Positions 32,477-43,252 of a stretch of 64,000 nt of DNA are shown piece by piece. This DNA comes from a bacterium (GTDB lineage: Bacteria > Zhuqueibacterota > QNDG01 > JAFGCO01), in assembly GCA_016932575.1 (NCBI GenBank), contig JAFGCO010000044.1, positions 20,980 to 84,979 of the forward strand, written 5' to 3'. The notes beneath the pieces are model-generated. The model saw nothing but the letters and a program-made list of their open reading frames with translations, had not been told where the DNA came from and ran no database searches. The position numbers and the translations under genes were made by a program. The stretch's first letter is position 1. The number at the start of each line of letters is the position of its first letter.

Positions 32477-34025
32477 GTTTCAATCCACGCGCCCGCGGGG
32501 GGCGCGACTTTCAAGAGCAAAAAACAGATGTTCAAAAGATATGTTTCAATCCACGCGCCCGCGGGGGGCGCGACGCTTATAGCTGATCTATTATGACTAT
32601 CCGGTATGTTTCAATCCACGCGCCCGCGGGGGGCGCGACTTGGACAATATACACAATTTGAACAGGATTTAAGTTTCAATCCACGCGCCCGCGGGGGGCG
32701 CGACAGTCACCGATTATAATATCCTGCAAAACAACGCTGTTTCAATCCACGCGCCCGCGGGGGGCGCGACTACGGTTTAATGTAAAGCGCCCTTTCTTAT
32801 AAGTTGTTTCAATCCACGCGCCCGCGGGGGGCGCGACCCCAAATAAACGGCAAGCATATATCCAATAATATGTTTCAATCCACGCGCCCGCGGGGGGCGC
32901 GACTGCCCCCGTGCAAATGCATATCAATTTCATAATTATGTTTCAATCCACGCGCCCGCGGGGGGCGCGACGCCCGTTTGTCTATCTCAAACGCTGTTCT
33001 TACCGTTTCAATCCACGCGCCCGCGGGGGGCGCGACGTAAAAGAATATGAAATCCCTTTGCACCAGAAAAGTTTCAATCCACGCGCCCGCGGGGGGCGCG
33101 ACCATGAGAAACGCTTTCTACTAATAATTTTAAATAGTTTCAATCCACGCGCCCGCGGGGGGCGCGACTTTGAATAATCTGGTTTAATATGATTTTCATA
33201 CTGTTTCAATCCACGCGCCCGCGGGGGGCGCGACCGTAGTCAAACCCCTCCCGTTCGCAAGCTATCAAAGTTTCAATCCACGCGCCCGCGGGGGGCGCGA
33301 CGTGCATCTTGATATAGATACCCGACCGATAAAAGTTTCAATCCACGCGCCCGCGGGGGGCGCGACTGATAGGTGTGTTGTAACCGATGGTACTAATACA
33401 GTTTCAATCCACGCGCCCGCGGGGGGCGCGACGTCACATTCTACACCTAAAGATTTATAATAAGTCGTTTCAATCCACGCGCCCGCGGGGGGCGCGACCT
33501 GTCATTGTTATGATCCGGTCCGCCCAGATAAGTTTCAATCCACGCGCCCGCGGGGGGCGCGACTCCGATTCCGTCCTGCTCAATAACGTGGAACTTAGTT
33601 TCAATCCACGCGCCCGCGGGGGGCGCGACACATAACGCGCCGTGCATAACCGGACAAGGCAAGTTTCAATCCACGCGCCCGCGGGGGGCGCGACTCATTA
33701 AAACTAATTACCATATTTTTAGGAGAACGTTTCAATCCACGCGCCCGCGGGGGGCGCGACGTTACCGCATGCCATGAAACGTCTTCAATATGTCTGTTTC
33801 AATCCACGCGCCCGCGGGGGGCGCGACACGTGCTTTTGAAAGCATGGTTGAAAACAGAGATGTTTCAATCCACGCGCCCGCGGGGGGCGCGACTTTAATC
33901 ACGCCTCTTTCTTTCTTCACTTTTTCTGTTTCAATCCACGCGCCCGCGGGGGGCGCGACTCATCTATCTTTATATTTTTATCTTTCTATTTAAGTTTCAA
34001 TCCACGCGCCCGCGGGGGGCGCGAC
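32477..34025 (-). CRISPR. Type I-C CRISPR array, 24 repeats and 23 spacers
   Basis: The 32-nt repeat on the plus strand begins GTTTCAATCCACGCG and ends GGGGGGCGCGAC. Its reverse complement ends in ATTGAAAC, the I-C hallmark, so transcription is leftward, the same direction as the cas genes. Copies start at 32477, 32543, 32608, 32673, 32739, 32806, 32872, 32940, 33005, 33071, 33137, 33203, 33270, 33335, 33401, 33467, 33532, 33598, 33663, 33729, 33796, 33862, 33928 and 33994. All 24 read identical, including the leader-distal one at 32477. Spacers are 33-36 nt (mostly 34) and none repeats another. The repeat is strongly palindromic (CGCGCCC/GGGCGCG), giving the crRNA hairpin. Confidence 0.98.
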
Positions 34026-34339
34026 AGGGGCTGTTTTCAGCCCATAAATTTCATTGACTTATCACCTCCATATCGGGAACTTGTCTTATATTCAATGAAT
34101 TAATCATTATTATTTTTTAATATAAACTATAAATCATTGTTTTTTCAATACCGCTAACTTTCGGTATAATATTATGATGCTTTCGGTCAGCGATAACAAT
34201 ATATATTAACTGAACATATCAGAAGGTAACCTTTTTACCGGTGTTTTTTAATGAATTTTTCATACTGATTATATTTTATTTTAAAAATAGATACTCTTAA
34301 AAGGTTACCTTCTGAACAATTGTCCTTAAAAATTAAATA
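34026..34339 (-). promoter_or_regulatory. CRISPR leader
   Basis: AT-rich leader between cas2 and the first repeat. A minus-strand promoter candidate TTGAAA (34148-34143)-N18-TATATT (34124-34119) would start RNA about 85 nt before the array. The stem GGGCTG/CAGCCC (34028-34043) touches the first repeat. A Shine-Dalgarno-like GGAGGTGA (minus, 34069-34062) lies between them. Two direct copies of ACCGAAAG (plus-strand CTTTCGGT at 34158-34165 and 34180-34187) are 22 bp apart, upstream of the promoter. Roles are inferred from position. Confidence 0.5.
34221..34313. repeat. cas-locus palindrome, copy a (long loop)
   Basis: Left arm AGAAGGTAACCTTTTT (34221-34236), right arm AAAAGGTTACCTTCT (34299-34313), separated by 62 AT-rich bp. 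It lies in the leader region, next to the cas2 stop. Confidence 0.85.
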
Positions 34340-34630
34340 TCAAACAATCAACAAACCTTCAGGATCATAACCGGCTTTTACACCATGATGTTCAATCCGA
34401 CGTTTCCAGTTCGAACCTAGAAAATAAAAACGAAGGCTGTCTTTTTCGGGTTCATATAATTCCAGAAGCCTCGCTTTTAGTTTTTCCCATTGATCCGGCT
34501 CAAGATTGCACTCGAATACCGAATTTTGCACCCGTTGTCCCTTTCCCACACACGTACGTGCGATTTTTGAAAGACGCTTTTGTCCGGATGGGTGAAGGGT
34601 TTCAACATCATAGCAAACCAACACCATCAT
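34340..34630 (-). CDS. cas2: CRISPR-associated endoribonuclease/adaptation protein Cas2
   Basis: 96 aa from ATG 34630 (GGAGAG upstream; ATG 34627 is equivalent). An upstream extension to 34723 would read through palindrome b and is artefactual. Ferredoxin-like Cas2: MVLVCYDVETLHPSGQKRL carries the first-strand aspartate, then RVQNSVFECNLEP and the C-terminal HHGVKAGYDPEGLLIV. It forms the Cas1-Cas2 integrase that adds spacers. It is the last cas gene before the array, separated from cas1 by palindrome b. Confidence 0.95.
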   Translation of the reverse strand: MMVLVCYDVETLHPSGQKRLSKIARTCVGKGQRVQNSVFECNLEPDQWEKLKARLLELYEPEKDSLRFYFLGSNWKRRIEHHGVKAGYDPEGLLIV

Positions 34631-34661
34631 AATGATCTCTCCTGTTAGAAGGTGACCACTT

Positions 34662-34694
34662 AGAAGGTAACCTTTTTCAAAAAGGTTACCTTCT
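34662..34694. repeat. cas-locus palindrome, copy b
   Basis: AGAAGGTAACCTTTTT (34662-34677), one C, then its exact inverse (34679-34694). It sits between cas1 and cas2. A partial half-copy TTAGAAGGTGACC lies beside it at 34645-34657. Confidence 0.95.
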
Positions 34695-34713
34695 AAAAAA
34701 CCGTACAAATTCC

Positions 34714-35748
34714 TCATCTCCATAAAACCGCCGGATAATATTCCAGATCTCCGCGTATATGTCTTGCCAGCAGCCTTGCCTGCGTTTGAAAAAATAAACC
34801 GATCTCCATCTTTTCTTCTAAAAATGGATGCAACATGGTTTCTTTTTTCCGGTTTTGATATGCCACAATCAATTCTTTACGGCAATCATCATCCATTTGT
34901 ACTTCACCCGTTCCATGAATTTTGAATTGTTTGGACTGAACCTGCTTCCGGTTAATTAATCCCAAAACCAGACGGTCCGCCAGCGGGGCTCTTAGCTCTT
35001 CCATCAAATCCAGGGCCAGGCCGGGTCTTCCGGGCCGGTCTGCATGCAAAAATCCCACATACGGATCAAGACCCACTGTTTCCAGGGCAGATCTCATGTC
35101 AAACACCAGAATTGTATATAAATAGGAAAGCATTGCGTTCACCCGGTCCTTTGGCGGGCGCCTTGAACGGCCCTTAAACTGAAACGATTCTTTCTGCTGC
35201 ACGATCATATGATCAAATACCTGAAAATAGACATTAGCCGCTTCACCTTCAATTCCGCGTAATTGATCAAGATTCATGCAATTTTGTGTGTCCGACAAGA
35301 GTCTTGCCAGGTTATCGATTTTTATTTTTATCGTATCTGTATGAGCATAATCCGGCTGATTCCTGAGAAAACGGAGCAAACTGGTCCTGCTGTTGTTAAT
35401 TTTTCCCGCGACCACGCATCTTGCGATTCCGAGTGATTTCTCAGCATCATCCGCCCAGCGATGCTGTTCTCTTCTTAACAGCACATTGCCTTTAACCGGC
35501 CCTTCCATTCTGCCAAGAAAACGACCGGTTTCTGTAAGCCAGGCAATGCTTACCCCGCTTTCAGCGCAGAAGGCCATAAGCGGTGCCGTCACAACAATAT
35601 CGAATCCGAAACATACAATCTGGCCGATGGTATGTATAGGAAGCTGCATGGTTTTTTGCCCATCCTGTTTCACCACCACAGTGCTGCCCTCTTTATGCAG
35701 CCAGGTGTTTTGCTGGGTTACATAAAGCGTGTTCTGCATATGTTTCAT
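34714..35748 (-). CDS. cas1: CRISPR-associated endonuclease Cas1 (type I-C)
   Basis: 344 aa, ATG 35748 overlapping the cas4 stop as ATGA. The N-terminal beta domain (MQNTLYVTQQNTWLHKEG, HTIGQIVCFG) precedes the helical catalytic domain, with the metal-binding glutamate in LRGIEGEAANVYF (~165-177), then histidine and acidic residues in GFLHADRPGRPGLALDLMEELR (~228-249, read in two parts). It is the integrase subunit for spacer acquisition. Length and sequence are typical for I-C. Confidence 0.96.
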   Translation of the reverse strand: MKHMQNTLYVTQQNTWLHKEGSTVVVKQDGQKTMQLPIHTIGQIVCFGFDIVVTAPLMAFCAESGVSIAWLTETGRFLGRMEGPVKGNVLLRREQHRWADDAEKSLGIARCVVAGKINNSRTSLLRFLRNQPDYAHTDTIKIKIDNLARLLSDTQNCMNLDQLRGIEGEAANVYFQVFDHMIVQQKESFQFKGRSRRPPKDRVNAMLSYLYTILVFDMRSALETVGLDPYVGFLHADRPGRPGLALDLMEELRAPLADRLVLGLINRKQVQSKQFKIHGTGEVQMDDDCRKELIVAYQNRKKETMLHPFLEEKMEIGLFFQTQARLLARHIRGDLEYYPAVLWR

Positions 35749-36440
35749 AACGGCTCCTGTGGTTGAAACAGCGATTGACGATATTTTACGGATTTAACGG
35801 ACATCCGTTTGGGCATGCAGATATCTTTCAGAGAGCATGCCCGGCAGCGCTTGTCGTTGATAGGTGGAGGCGTTGTTCTGTTTTGGAACAGAGCGTGGAG
35901 ATTTTTGATTGCATTCCTTGTTAGATCCTTAAGTTCCTGATTAATTAACACATCTTCACGCCGCCGGATACGCCGATAAAATAAAGATGCCTGTTTGATT
36001 TCGACACCTAACATTTCTTCAATGCACAGAACCTGAGCGCAGAGCTGCACCCGGTCGCAGTCATTTTCCTTTGGCTGTCCGTGTTTAAATTCAACCGGGT
36101 ATACGCGCCAGGTCCCTTTTAAATGAAATGAAGGCAAATTCGATTGACCCTTTGGATTAATTTCTTCCAGTTCCAGCACATCGATGCGGCCGTGAATTTT
36201 CAGTTTTTCCGACTGAATATACAGCCCCGAAATCTGCCGTTTGCCTCTCCTGAATTCTCTGTATCCGCTGTCCGCCCGGTCATGTTCCAGCCTGCCACGG
36301 GCAGTCAGCACATTTTCAGACCATTCCTGCTCAATATGGATGAGTGTGCACTGCCGCGGGCAAAATATAAAATGCTGCAGGGCAGAGACAGGTAATGAAT
36401 CATTTTCTTTGTCATTCATAGCGAGATCTTTGTTTGTCAT
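35745..36440 (-). CDS. cas4: CRISPR-associated exonuclease Cas4
   Basis: 231 aa (ATG 36440; ATG 36419 possible). RecB-like nuclease with the N-terminal cluster cysteine in FIFCPRQCTLIH and the C-terminal three in CRACSLKDIC, holding an Fe-S cluster. The nuclease core GRIDVLEL and PVEFKHGQPKENDCDRVQL carries the Asp, Glu-x-Lys and Gln motif. Cas4 selects PAM-containing prespacers for Cas1-Cas2. It is coupled to cas1 by ATGA. Upstream lies the RAYT gene, so cas4 may depend on transcription reading through it or on its own promoter. Confidence 0.95.
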   Translation of the reverse strand: MTNKDLAMNDKENDSLPVSALQHFIFCPRQCTLIHIEQEWSENVLTARGRLEHDRADSGYREFRRGKRQISGLYIQSEKLKIHGRIDVLELEEINPKGQSNLPSFHLKGTWRVYPVEFKHGQPKENDCDRVQLCAQVLCIEEMLGVEIKQASLFYRRIRRREDVLINQELKDLTRNAIKNLHALFQNRTTPPPINDKRCRACSLKDICMPKRMSVKSVKYRQSLFQPQEPL

Positions 36441-36454
36441 TTCTTATTTTTATT

Positions 36455-36487
36455 ACAAGGTAACCTTTTTGAAAAAGGTTACCTTGT
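36455..36487. repeat. cas-locus palindrome, copy c (compensated variant)
   Basis: ACAAGGTAACCTTTTT (36455-36470), G, and AAAAAGGTTACCTTGT (36472-36487). Both arms changed together relative to the other copies (AGAA to ACAA, TTCT to TTGT), so pairing is kept. It lies between the RAYT gene and cas4. Confidence 0.95.
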
Positions 36488-36526
36488 GAAAGTGATCATG
36501 CGAAATCGACTCTGCAAATATGTTAT

Positions 36527-37081
36527 CTATTCCAATTTTACTTTATCCAGTTCCTTGTCATCTTCATCCAAATGATCCATGACAAATTCTTTGTAAGCCT
36601 GCTTATCAGGAAATTGACTGATAATAATCTCTGTTGCAGGTAAAGATCCATGACGGAGTCCGGCATATTCATGATAACTGGAATAGGGCCATTCTTCCGG
36701 TACATTTACCAACCCGGCTTTCACAGGATTCAGATGAATGTATCTCGATAATCGAAGCAGCTGGTTGTTATTTTCGATTCTTATTTTTTTATAGGTATCC
36801 TGAAAAAGATGACCATTCCGCTGAAATCGTTTGTTGATGGCTTTTGCATAGGATGTCTGCAAGCTCAGCATTGTCTTTTTAAGATGGTTGTCTATTGTTT
36901 CTTTCATCAATAAATGAAAATGATTGGGCATCAGGCAATATGCAATAACAAGCTGTTTTCCCTTTGATGAGTATTTTCGAAGGCGATTTAGAAAAAAACG
37001 GTAATTATCCTTATTATAATAAATAGGCTGCTTTTCATTCCCCCGATTGATGACATGGTAGTATTCTTCTGCATACGTCAT
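36527..37081 (-). CDS. REP-associated tyrosine (Y1/IS200-like) transposase, RAYT
   Basis: 184 aa. Y1 transposase fold: HVINRGNEKQPIYYNKDNY (~9-27), the HUH motif in MPNHFHLLMK (~51-60), catalytic tyrosine region TSYAKAINKRFQRNGHLFQ (~75-93), and ENNNQLLRLSRYIHLNPVKAGL. Length and the RYIHLNPVKAGL signature are those of single-domain RAYTs, which are usually domesticated, non-mobile, and act on palindromic REP sequences. It lies between cas7 and cas4 in the same orientation as the cas genes and is flanked by two copies of the local palindrome (36455 and 37141). The frame is intact. Confidence 0.93.
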   Translation of the reverse strand: MTYAEEYYHVINRGNEKQPIYYNKDNYRFFLNRLRKYSSKGKQLVIAYCLMPNHFHLLMKETIDNHLKKTMLSLQTSYAKAINKRFQRNGHLFQDTYKKIRIENNNQLLRLSRYIHLNPVKAGLVNVPEEWPYSSYHEYAGLRHGSLPATEIIISQFPDKQAYKEFVMDHLDEDDKELDKVKLE

Positions 37082-37140
37082 TTGAGATTCCTTGAGACAG
37101 TTAATGAATTAGCTTTACAAACACTTTCAATCAGCCAATC

Positions 37141-37173
37141 AGAAGGTAACCTTTTTAGAAAAGGTTACCTTCT
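37141..37173. repeat. cas-locus palindrome, copy d
   Basis: AGAAGGTAACCTTTTT (37141-37156), AG, AAAAGGTTACCTTCT (37159-37173). It begins 1 bp after the cas7 stop, between cas7 and the RAYT start. Confidence 0.95.
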
Positions 37174-37174
37174 A

Positions 37175-38207
37175 TTAAACATTTACCAATGTTTTTATCT
37201 CATTGACTGGCTTGCCATCTAATGTGATCAAATAATCCTGAAATGACCTGGCTGGTTTATCCCTGTTTTCCTTTTTTCTTATGCATTCAACAGTAGCAAA
37301 TAATTCCTGTGCCTGTTTATTGCCTAATTCTGATTTGTGTTTGAATATTATTAACCTTCTTGTTGCCATTTCACCCCTAGCCGCAGATCTGTCATGATCA
37401 AACATATTTAAAAGGGCTTCCCAGAACAGTTCAATATCTTCTTCCGAAAATCCGGTTTTTTTTGCAAGGGGGGCTGAGATGAAGCCGTGTGTACGGTAGA
37501 GACCATAAGGAACAATTGCTTTGCGTGCTCCTAATCCTTTATCATCTGGCTTATCGACTGAGACTGCCGCTGTCCGAAACATGGCTATATCAAGTCCCAA
37601 AATCGTTTCAACACTTCTAGAAAAGCACAATTGAACCGGACCCCTGACTTGGCCACAAGTTTTATCTCCAGTTGACATAACTGAGCCAAAAGTTCTAACA
37701 TCATAAAAATTTTTACACATCCACTTTTTCGCAATTCTATCCTTGCTGTCGATAAATAGTTCTTTCAGTTTGGCAAGAGATGCATCAGAAATATCTTTTA
37801 GTTTTCCAACTTCTTTCTTTATTTTTTCAATATCAACATTCAGGCATAAGTAAACACCTTCGTTTTCAAAGCCTACACCTTCAGGGTAATTCTTATAATT
37901 ACTTAACTCTTCGCGTAAATCAGAGGGTAAATAAACATATAATCTCTCATTATCTAAAGCTAAATGTGCCCGTTTATGATGTTCTGATAAAAAAGCGCCC
38001 TCACGAACATGAATTTCATAAGGTGCTTCGTTCTGCTTAACCATATCAATGTAATTTCTCACTTTTCTTTTCAAACACACATCGGTCACAATACCGTGCC
38101 CGGTTTCAGGATCAATTCGTGGCAAATTGCCTGCATCCGGATCACCGTTGGGATTACCATTTTTCACATCAAAAAAAAGGACAAATTCATATCGATTATT
38201 GATTGCT

Positions 38208-38215
<8 letters not shown>
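37175..38215 (-). CDS. cas7: Type I-C Cascade backbone protein Cas7 (Csd2)
   Basis: 346 aa from ATG 38215, chosen for GGAGAG upstream and for homologues starting near NNRYEFVLFFDVKNGNPNGD; the open frame extends to 38287 inside cas8c. DevR/Csd2-type Cas7: DVKNGNPNGDPDAGNLPR (~15-32), VTDVCLKRKVRNY, DVRTFGSVMSTG, GQVRGPVQLCFSRSVE. Multiple copies coat the crRNA spacer in Cascade. The start overlaps the cas8c stop by 8 bp. Transcription next meets palindrome d and then the RAYT gene. Confidence 0.96.
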
Positions 38216-42735
<4,520 letters not shown>

Positions 42736-42907
42736 ATGAATATCCTTCCTGAATTGAATTGCGGTCCATTCTTATTACCTAAAGTGTGCGGACAAAGTAT
42801 GCTTAAATATTTTTTTTGCAGTGCAGAGGTGTATTGATAAGTCGGGAAGCTTGAGTCACATGATGTCGCGTTTTCAGAATACTATAAAGGTGTCGAAATT
42901 TGTTTGA

Positions 42908-42936
42908 AATTTAGGATGAATTTTTCTTAATGTCAA
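42908..42936 (-). promoter_or_regulatory. Promoter of the cas3-cas5-cas8c-cas7 operon
   Basis: Minus-strand TTGACA (42936-42931), a 17-nt spacer and TAAATT (42913-42908). Start expected near 42900, leaving a ~165-nt leader before the TTG of cas3. Identical hexamers and spacing occur at 23350-23378. Confidence 0.6.
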
Positions 42937-43005
42937 GTCTGTTTATCGGAAAAAGAATGAATATTGGATAAATATGGTGATAATTGTATTAATAAATAAG
43001 CTTTT

Positions 43006-43038
43006 AGAAGGTAACCTTTTTGAAAAAGGTTACCTTCT
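43006..43038. repeat. cas-locus palindrome, copy e
   Basis: AGAAGGTAACCTTTTT (43006-43021), G, AAAAAGGTTACCTTCT (43023-43038). About 70 bp upstream of the cas promoter -35. Confidence 0.95.
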
Positions 43039-43154
43039 GATTTGCTGACTGATTATCTAATAACCAACAATCCCCTGGCATTTGGATGGAAAGATTTTTT
43101 TTGATAATATTTGATAACCGGATTTTATGAAATTCGAGTTTGAGTTATTATTGC

Positions 43155-43252
43155 AGAAGGCAACCTTATTATAGACAGGTTTTTTTAAAACCCGTTCATC
43201 ATTAAAATAATGGATTTATAAGATAAGAATCTTTGAAAAAAGGTTGCCTTCT
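43155..43252. repeat. cas-locus palindrome, copy f (long loop, compensated variant)
   Basis: Left arm AGAAGGCAACCTT (43155-43167), right arm AAGGTTGCCTTCT (43240-43252), about 70 bp apart. The GTAACC core has become GCAACC and the partner GGTTGCC, so complementarity is preserved. This outermost copy mirrors copy a at the other end of the locus. Confidence 0.85.

Follow-up and report, generated by a model that had tools for sequence, protein, structure and literature searches.

In the 64-kb stretch of contig JAFGCO010000044.1 analysed here (the window), six copies of a palindrome lie in and beside a type I-C CRISPR-Cas locus, and a gene for a repetitive extragenic palindrome (REP)-associated tyrosine transposase (RAYT) lies within that locus, between cas7 and cas4. 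From sequence comparisons, we think that the six palindromes are most probably the cognate hairpin repeats of this RAYT, and that a module of the REPtron/TIRtron type was inserted in the type I-C operon and seeded local copies. The palindromes and the RAYT gene are as follows.

34221..34313, copy a: two-arm (REPIN-like) element of 93 nt in the gap between cas2 and the CRISPR array, on the leader side; 15 of 15 arm positions are complementary
34662..34694, copy b: compact 33-nt palindrome in the gap between cas1 and cas2
36455..36487, copy c: compact 33-nt palindrome downstream of RAYT, with the compensated change ACAAGG/CCTTGT
36527..37081, minus strand: RAYT (184 amino acids), with NHFH and SRYIHLNP motifs
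37141..37173, copy d: compact 33-nt palindrome upstream of RAYT
43006..43038, copy e: compact 33-nt palindrome upstream of cas3
43155..43252, copy f: two-arm element of 98 nt upstream of cas3, with the arm variant GGC/GCC

The four compact copies are near-perfect palindromes, and copies a and f carry the same arms (AAGGTAACCTT). An initial annotation of the window had described six copies at these coordinates and none elsewhere in the window, and sequence searches confirm all six coordinates. The 13-nt arm, with up to two mismatches, has 23 matches in the window (0.97 expected), and 22 of them are within the six copies. The only hairpins in the whole 64 kb with a stem of at least 13 pairs (one mismatch allowed) and a loop of up to 4 nt are the four compact copies. 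The annotation's loops of about 62 and 70 bp in the outer copies are about right for elements of 93 and 98 nt, and the paired substitutions that it reported in copies c and f do leave the arms complementary. The core of that description, a real, structured, and clustered palindrome with a RAYT gene nearby, stands.

The RAYT protein scores 85.8 bits against NF047646, above the curated cut-off of 80. Its further matches are Y1_Tnp and TnpArep (4er8; E = 4.4e-4). The alignment to 4er8 is weak but continuous, and it places H-F-H over H59-M-H61 and a tyrosine over Y115 (numbering counted by hand); we take these to be the HUH motif and the catalytic tyrosine of the window RAYT. The 4er8 positions E100, H101, and R104, which are named for GTAG contact in the relevant passage of PMC6006769, are K, I, and E in the window RAYT.

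In a sample of 82 genomes from the phylum of the window, a search with the window RAYT as the query (E 1e-20) gave 43 matches in 29 genomes. For all 43, we examined 260 nt on each side for palindromes with a stem of at least 13 pairs on both sides and a shared 10-mer. A shared palindrome flanks 17 of the 43 RAYT loci and 0 of 332 other open reading frames (ORFs) of the same loci. If sharing is set aside, 20 of 43 RAYTs and 2 of 332 control ORFs have a palindrome on both sides. The sequence of the flanking palindrome differs by RAYT, and the build is common: most are 31–39 nt long with a loop of 1–4 nt, and the halves are near-symmetric by eye. The AAGGTAACCTT palindrome of the window recurs on both sides of RAYTs in two other genomes of the sample (G015 and G019), whose proteins are 53% identical to the window RAYT. 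We read the palindromes as cognate to the RAYT because of the difference between RAYTs and control ORFs and because the same palindrome brackets the RAYT in these three genomes.

These results also bear on another account, in which the palindromes are miniature inverted-repeat transposable elements of an unrelated cut-and-paste (DDE) transposon, which would have AGAAGGTAACCTT ends, and the RAYT is a bystander. The long forms do resemble elements of about 100 nt with terminal inverted repeats of about 16 nt. However, the copies have no constant target duplication, the RAYTs of three genomes each lie between two copies of this palindrome, and other RAYTs have palindromes of their own. Judging from the flanks of the copies and of the RAYTs, we consider this account very unlikely.

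To find further copies, we searched the source genome (G000), a 72-contig, 4.41-Mb draft that is 94.5% complete, with the arm and with the palindrome. Contig ends with the same flanks were merged (C11/C12/C15 and C22/C42), and single-arm matches inside ORFs (C69 and C6:321880) were judged to be due to chance and were not counted. The genome has 20 elements, with 6 in the 9-kb CRISPR locus and 14 elsewhere. The palindrome is thus not confined to the CRISPR-Cas locus, as the initial annotation had it, and the 14 outside copies count in part against the link to cas genes that it drew; yet 6 of 20 elements within 9 kb is strong clustering. Five neighbours lie within 9 kb of an element, as compared to about 0.08 expected.

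By form, the 20 elements comprise 10 intact long ones, 2 long ones with a decayed right arm (on C32 and C43, by our own reading), and 8 compact ones. Eight of the intact two-arm elements lie outside the locus; these are 96–110 nt long and have the same form as copies a and f. Among the 10 intact long forms, the arms are conserved and the AT-rich centre is variable. One element locus was assembled twice with the same flanks, at 108 nt (L048, end of C11) and at 54 nt (L049, end of C12), which likely reflects loss of the centre in some strains. We infer that the forms of 93–110 nt are a REPIN-like unit from which the 33-nt forms would derive by loss of the centre.

Beyond the source genome, the compact palindrome (up to three mismatches) was found in 20 of the 82 phylum genomes, and the reversed control pattern in 1. 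A scan of genome contigs gave 12 stretches with the compact palindrome, including three from candidate division KSB1 and one from Ignavibacteriales (relatives of the source genome may be excluded from these). The exact compact palindrome had no match among viral contigs, and a phage origin of the palindromes was dropped.

The remaining features of the type I-C locus, which runs in the order cas3, cas5, cas8c, cas7, RAYT, cas4, cas1, cas2, and array, are these.

40549..42735, minus strand: cas3 (family profile matches)
39902..40534, minus strand: cas5c (family profile matches)
38208..39905, minus strand: cas8c (Csd1; family profile matches)
37175..38287, minus strand: cas7 (Csd2; family profile matches)
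35745..36440, minus strand: cas4 (family profile matches)
34714..35748, minus strand: cas1 of type I-C (TIGR03640, 495 bits)
34340..34723, minus strand: cas2 ORF (Cas2 domain from residue 32)
32477..34025, presumably minus strand: CRISPR array with 24 repeats of 32 nt; we take its direction from the orientation that we assume for type I-C repeats

Because the Cas2 domain begins at residue 32, the start codon of cas2 is likely near 34630, beyond copy b as seen from cas1. Three other type I-C loci of the phylum span cas7-cas4-cas1-cas2 (in G059, G029, and on contig C153 of G047), and none of the three has a RAYT match or a palindrome with a stem of 13. The aligned ends of cas1 and cas2 are 8 nt apart in G059, 43 nt in G029, and 19 nt in G047, as compared to about 80 nt in the window, whose cas1–cas2 gap holds copy b. 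We argue for insertion into the type I-C operon because these comparable loci lack the RAYT and the palindrome and have a much tighter cas1–cas2 gap. Two more loci, in G075 (C106) and on another contig of G047 (C354), have no RAYT over the parts that are present (the contigs stop short of cas4-cas2); the one in G075 has a palindrome of different sequence. The RAYT module of G015 lies between two copies of a 90-nt stretch from the end of cas6 (94% identical), and the palindrome supplies the last codons of cas6. A second RAYT in that genome is bracketed by a 54-nt repeat of the start region of cas4 (89%). Judging by sequence, these two repeats look like insertion scars.

The initial annotation had instead read the palindromes as cas-specific regulatory or RNA-processing elements that divide the operon into modules. 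The copies do lie in the gaps cas7–RAYT, RAYT–cas4, cas1–cas2, and cas2–array and upstream of cas3; a compact copy as RNA is predicted to form 15 base pairs at about -19 kcal/mol, so that the hairpins would fold in cas mRNA; and 10 of the 23 exact-arm compact palindromes from the phylum search are in cas loci (of four genomes). Against this, the source genome has 14 further elements outside the locus, the three comparable type I-C loci do without palindromes, and the general link is to RAYT genes. Nor does any of the six copies match an Rfam family or get a terminator call: a scan for intrinsic terminators (a G+C stem and then a T-run) recovered none of them, and a terminator reading was dropped. 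For the same reasons (copies at 14 other sites, relatives without the element, and a rule of palindrome with RAYT), the proposed partition into interference, RAYT, adaptation, and array is unsupported. The accompanying statement that copies never fall inside coupled gene pairs is misleading, as copy b separates cas1 from cas2, whose aligned ends are so close in the three relatives. We consider a regulatory origin unlikely. Still, modelling of the fold makes an effect of the hairpins on expression of the cas operon possible.

Does the stem itself evolve as a paired structure? The phylum search yielded 67 distinct compact copies, and its pattern had left pair 12/18 free. This pair is Watson-Crick in 56 of 67 copies (C-G in 37 and T-A in 19), as compared to 31.9 expected from independent columns. 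Pairs 13/17 and 14/16 are slightly above independence (50 versus 43.5 and 29 versus 23.6). The covariation would fit folded single-stranded DNA as well as RNA, and it is not proof of selection, as the arms could also be kept matched when imperfect palindromes are repaired by template switching. The pairing also bears on the idea that a DNA-binding regulator of the cas genes uses each arm as its operator. Each AAGGTAACCTT arm is nearly a dyad by itself, but the GGC/GCC and GGG/CCC variants break the dyad within the arm and keep the pairing between arms, and the starts of the arms are anywhere from about 19 to 97 nt apart. An operator is extremely improbable.

If the palindromes are cognate repeats of the RAYT, then the predicted course of events is that a RAYT-hairpin module inserts into a type I-C cas operon and that further hairpin copies are seeded from it into neighbouring gaps. 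By analogy with TnpAREP/REP pairs, the RAYT protein would bind and nick the hairpin as single-stranded DNA and paste copies elsewhere, and so we infer that the window RAYT would mobilise these repeats. The known systems are compared here as they are described in the relevant passages of four papers. In vitro, TnpAREP proteins are reported to act on their own REP as folded single-stranded DNA, which they recognise, cut, and join, and the REPs beside the RAYT gene belong to dispersed families (PMC8266576). As in a REPtron, the window RAYT has its own palindrome family, both adjacent and dispersed, and the palindromes are perfect as in group 3; unlike a REPtron, the window module has no GTAG/GTGG, its 33-nt palindrome has two arms, and its copy number is low (PMC8266576). 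In TIRtrons, the inverted repeats on either side of the RAYT gene have no relation to GTAG REPs, and some of them are self-complementary (PMC3733652). The window module is similar in that non-GTAG inverted repeats closely flank a RAYT-like gene (a TIRYT), and TIRtron repeats are moderately abundant in some genomes; TIRtrons differ in that their species include Pseudomonas, Stenotrophomonas, and Acidobacteria, and the passages compared here describe no siting in cas operons (PMC3733652). The features that REPtrons and TIRtrons have in common, cognate repeats close on both sides of the RAYT and a family dispersed in the genome, are present here. Like REPINs, copies a and f and the eight other intact elements consist of two inverted ends and a variable spacer over about 100 nt, with the ends more conserved across the 10 long copies; here, however, there are 10 intact long copies, as compared to several hundred doublets in P. 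fluorescens SBW25, and the spacer-less form is frequent (PMC3116915). If an inverted REP dimer lost its centre, a fused form of REP could result, and the compact copies would have arisen in the same way, but such double-foot REPs have GT[AG]G feet (PMC6006769).

Several observations weigh against cognate repeats and an inserted module. None of the six copies has GTAG or GTGG directly at the hairpin foot, so they are not canonical REPs. By eye, no constant-length target duplication is seen in the flanks of the source-genome copies, and the window RAYT has no bracketing repeat besides the palindromes. Of the 43 RAYT loci, 26 lack a shared flanking palindrome, which means that the rule does not hold for RAYTs in general. 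Eighteen copy-bearing stretches from ten genomes (L221 and L093 are one contig) have neither a cas nor a RAYT match; G011 has 20 palindrome copies and one weak RAYT match; and the RAYT that lies beside a AAGGTAACCTT palindrome in G031 is of another lineage with repeats of its own. In one other phylum, we found nine RAYT loci in 8 of 195 genomes, with no cas genes and no palindrome with a stem of 13 in the flanks examined. Because no RAYT-cas loci were found there, our claims are for the phylum of the window.

The three RAYTs that have the AAGGTAACCTT palindrome on each side (in the window, G015, and G019) all sit in cas loci. Those of G015 and G019 are directly after cas6 in type I-B-like loci; in G015, cas8b follows, and in G019, the contig ends soon after. 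Other RAYTs, with different repeats, are found in cas operons as well. The second CRISPR-Cas system of the source genome, of type I-B, has a RAYT between cas4 and cas1 (contig C52; L154, 2090-12271). The cas3–cas4 gap of G015 holds its second RAYT, a RAYT/IS200-like gene (L166 on contig C112, 16352-16816) with CAAGGGGTTG..CAACCCCTTG palindromes around it. G017 has a RAYT between cas4 and cas1 and a truncated, weakly matching one before cas4. In G031, a RAYT lies directly before cas1 in an operon of cas7, cas5, cas3, cas4, a PQLLE-family gene, RAYT, and cas1; the only compact AAGGTAACCTT palindrome that we found in G031 is in this operon, together with two further palindromes, in the cas3–cas4 gap and just after cas4. 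The NF047646 scores are 87.7 bits for G031, 85.8 for the window, 82.9 for C52, 80.0 for G019, 79.5 for G015, 59.9 for G017, and 43.2 for the second gene of G015, so the RAYT-like genes of G017 and the second of G015 are well under the cut-off. All seven untruncated RAYTs are co-oriented with the adjoining cas genes by their coordinates, and five of the seven (window, C52, second G015, G017, and G031) are next to cas4 or cas1.

Some details of these loci are recorded here in their own right. The C52 RAYT is near GTAGG-type repeats (by eye) and is bracketed by an 84-nt direct repeat (84.5%). The G031 RAYT is flanked by direct repeats of about 150–170 nt, and three different RAYT-style palindromes occupy successive gaps of its cas operon (C56; L270, 6433-9314). 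The G017 locus has an Xpf/Hef-like nuclease gene between cas3 and cas4 (L144, 8138-8779), a partial match well below the curated cut-off. In G020 (contig C3; L287, 7842-8432), at least six copies of a TTGATTCCATCGCTT palindrome with a spacing of about 112 nt lie about 1 kb before a cas1 match, and this palindrome resembles one beside a RAYT of G013 (G013b).

In this phylum, cas operons hold RAYTs more often than would be predicted from the number of RAYTs genome-wide. A Cas1 search gave 55 matches, some of them partial, in 34 of the 82 genomes. We scanned up to about 10 kb on each side (often limited by a contig end) with our own hidden Markov model, which may miss other RAYT subclasses. The genome-wide density was 355 matches in 383.5 Mb (NF047646, E 1e-6); four of the stretch lengths were entered by hand as 13–20 kb, and G019, which has no cas1 match, was not counted. 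A RAYT was present in 5 of the 55 cas1 loci as compared to 0.54 expected (the chance of five or more is about 1.7e-4), or in 4 of 54 versus 0.48 expected if the window locus, our starting point, is left out (about 0.0015). This excess does not distinguish a preference for cas operons from one for dispensable operons of any kind. In a tree of 46 RAYTs (the 43 without G009c, G033, and G040b, plus six from cas loci and the source genome), the cas label of the seven requires four changes. Well-supported branches force at least two of these, and long branches make the placements rough. Of 500 shuffles, just one gave a label that was at least as clustered. Six of 71 RAYT-neighbour proteins that were scanned, a subset of all the neighbours, match cas families (Cas4 twice, Cas6 twice, Cas7 once, and Cas1 once), and no family occurs more than twice among the matches listed.

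One could imagine from these patterns that RAYTs are recurrently recruited as accessory genes of CRISPR-Cas, with different lineages settling on the cas strand by cas4 or cas1, and that the HUH nuclease and its hairpins take part in the acquisition of spacers or set how strongly the adaptation module is expressed; we think this unlikely. Judged by titles or the openings of abstracts, our literature search found nothing that places RAYTs in cas operons. The main text of PMC6006769 does not mention "CRISPR", and the CRISPR passages of PMC3116915 and PMC3733652, among the occurrences listed, are about repeats in general.

The RAYT-hairpin module departs from known ones in its sequence build and its place, and what looks new and surprising is that RAYTs from more than one lineage recur in the cas operons of this phylum. 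Palindromes between cas genes should be interpreted with caution, as they may be repeats that belong to a nearby transposase and not CRISPR signals. A phylum with more than one RAYT-hairpin lineage in its cas operons also offers a bounded setting in which to ask whether RAYTs serve their host.

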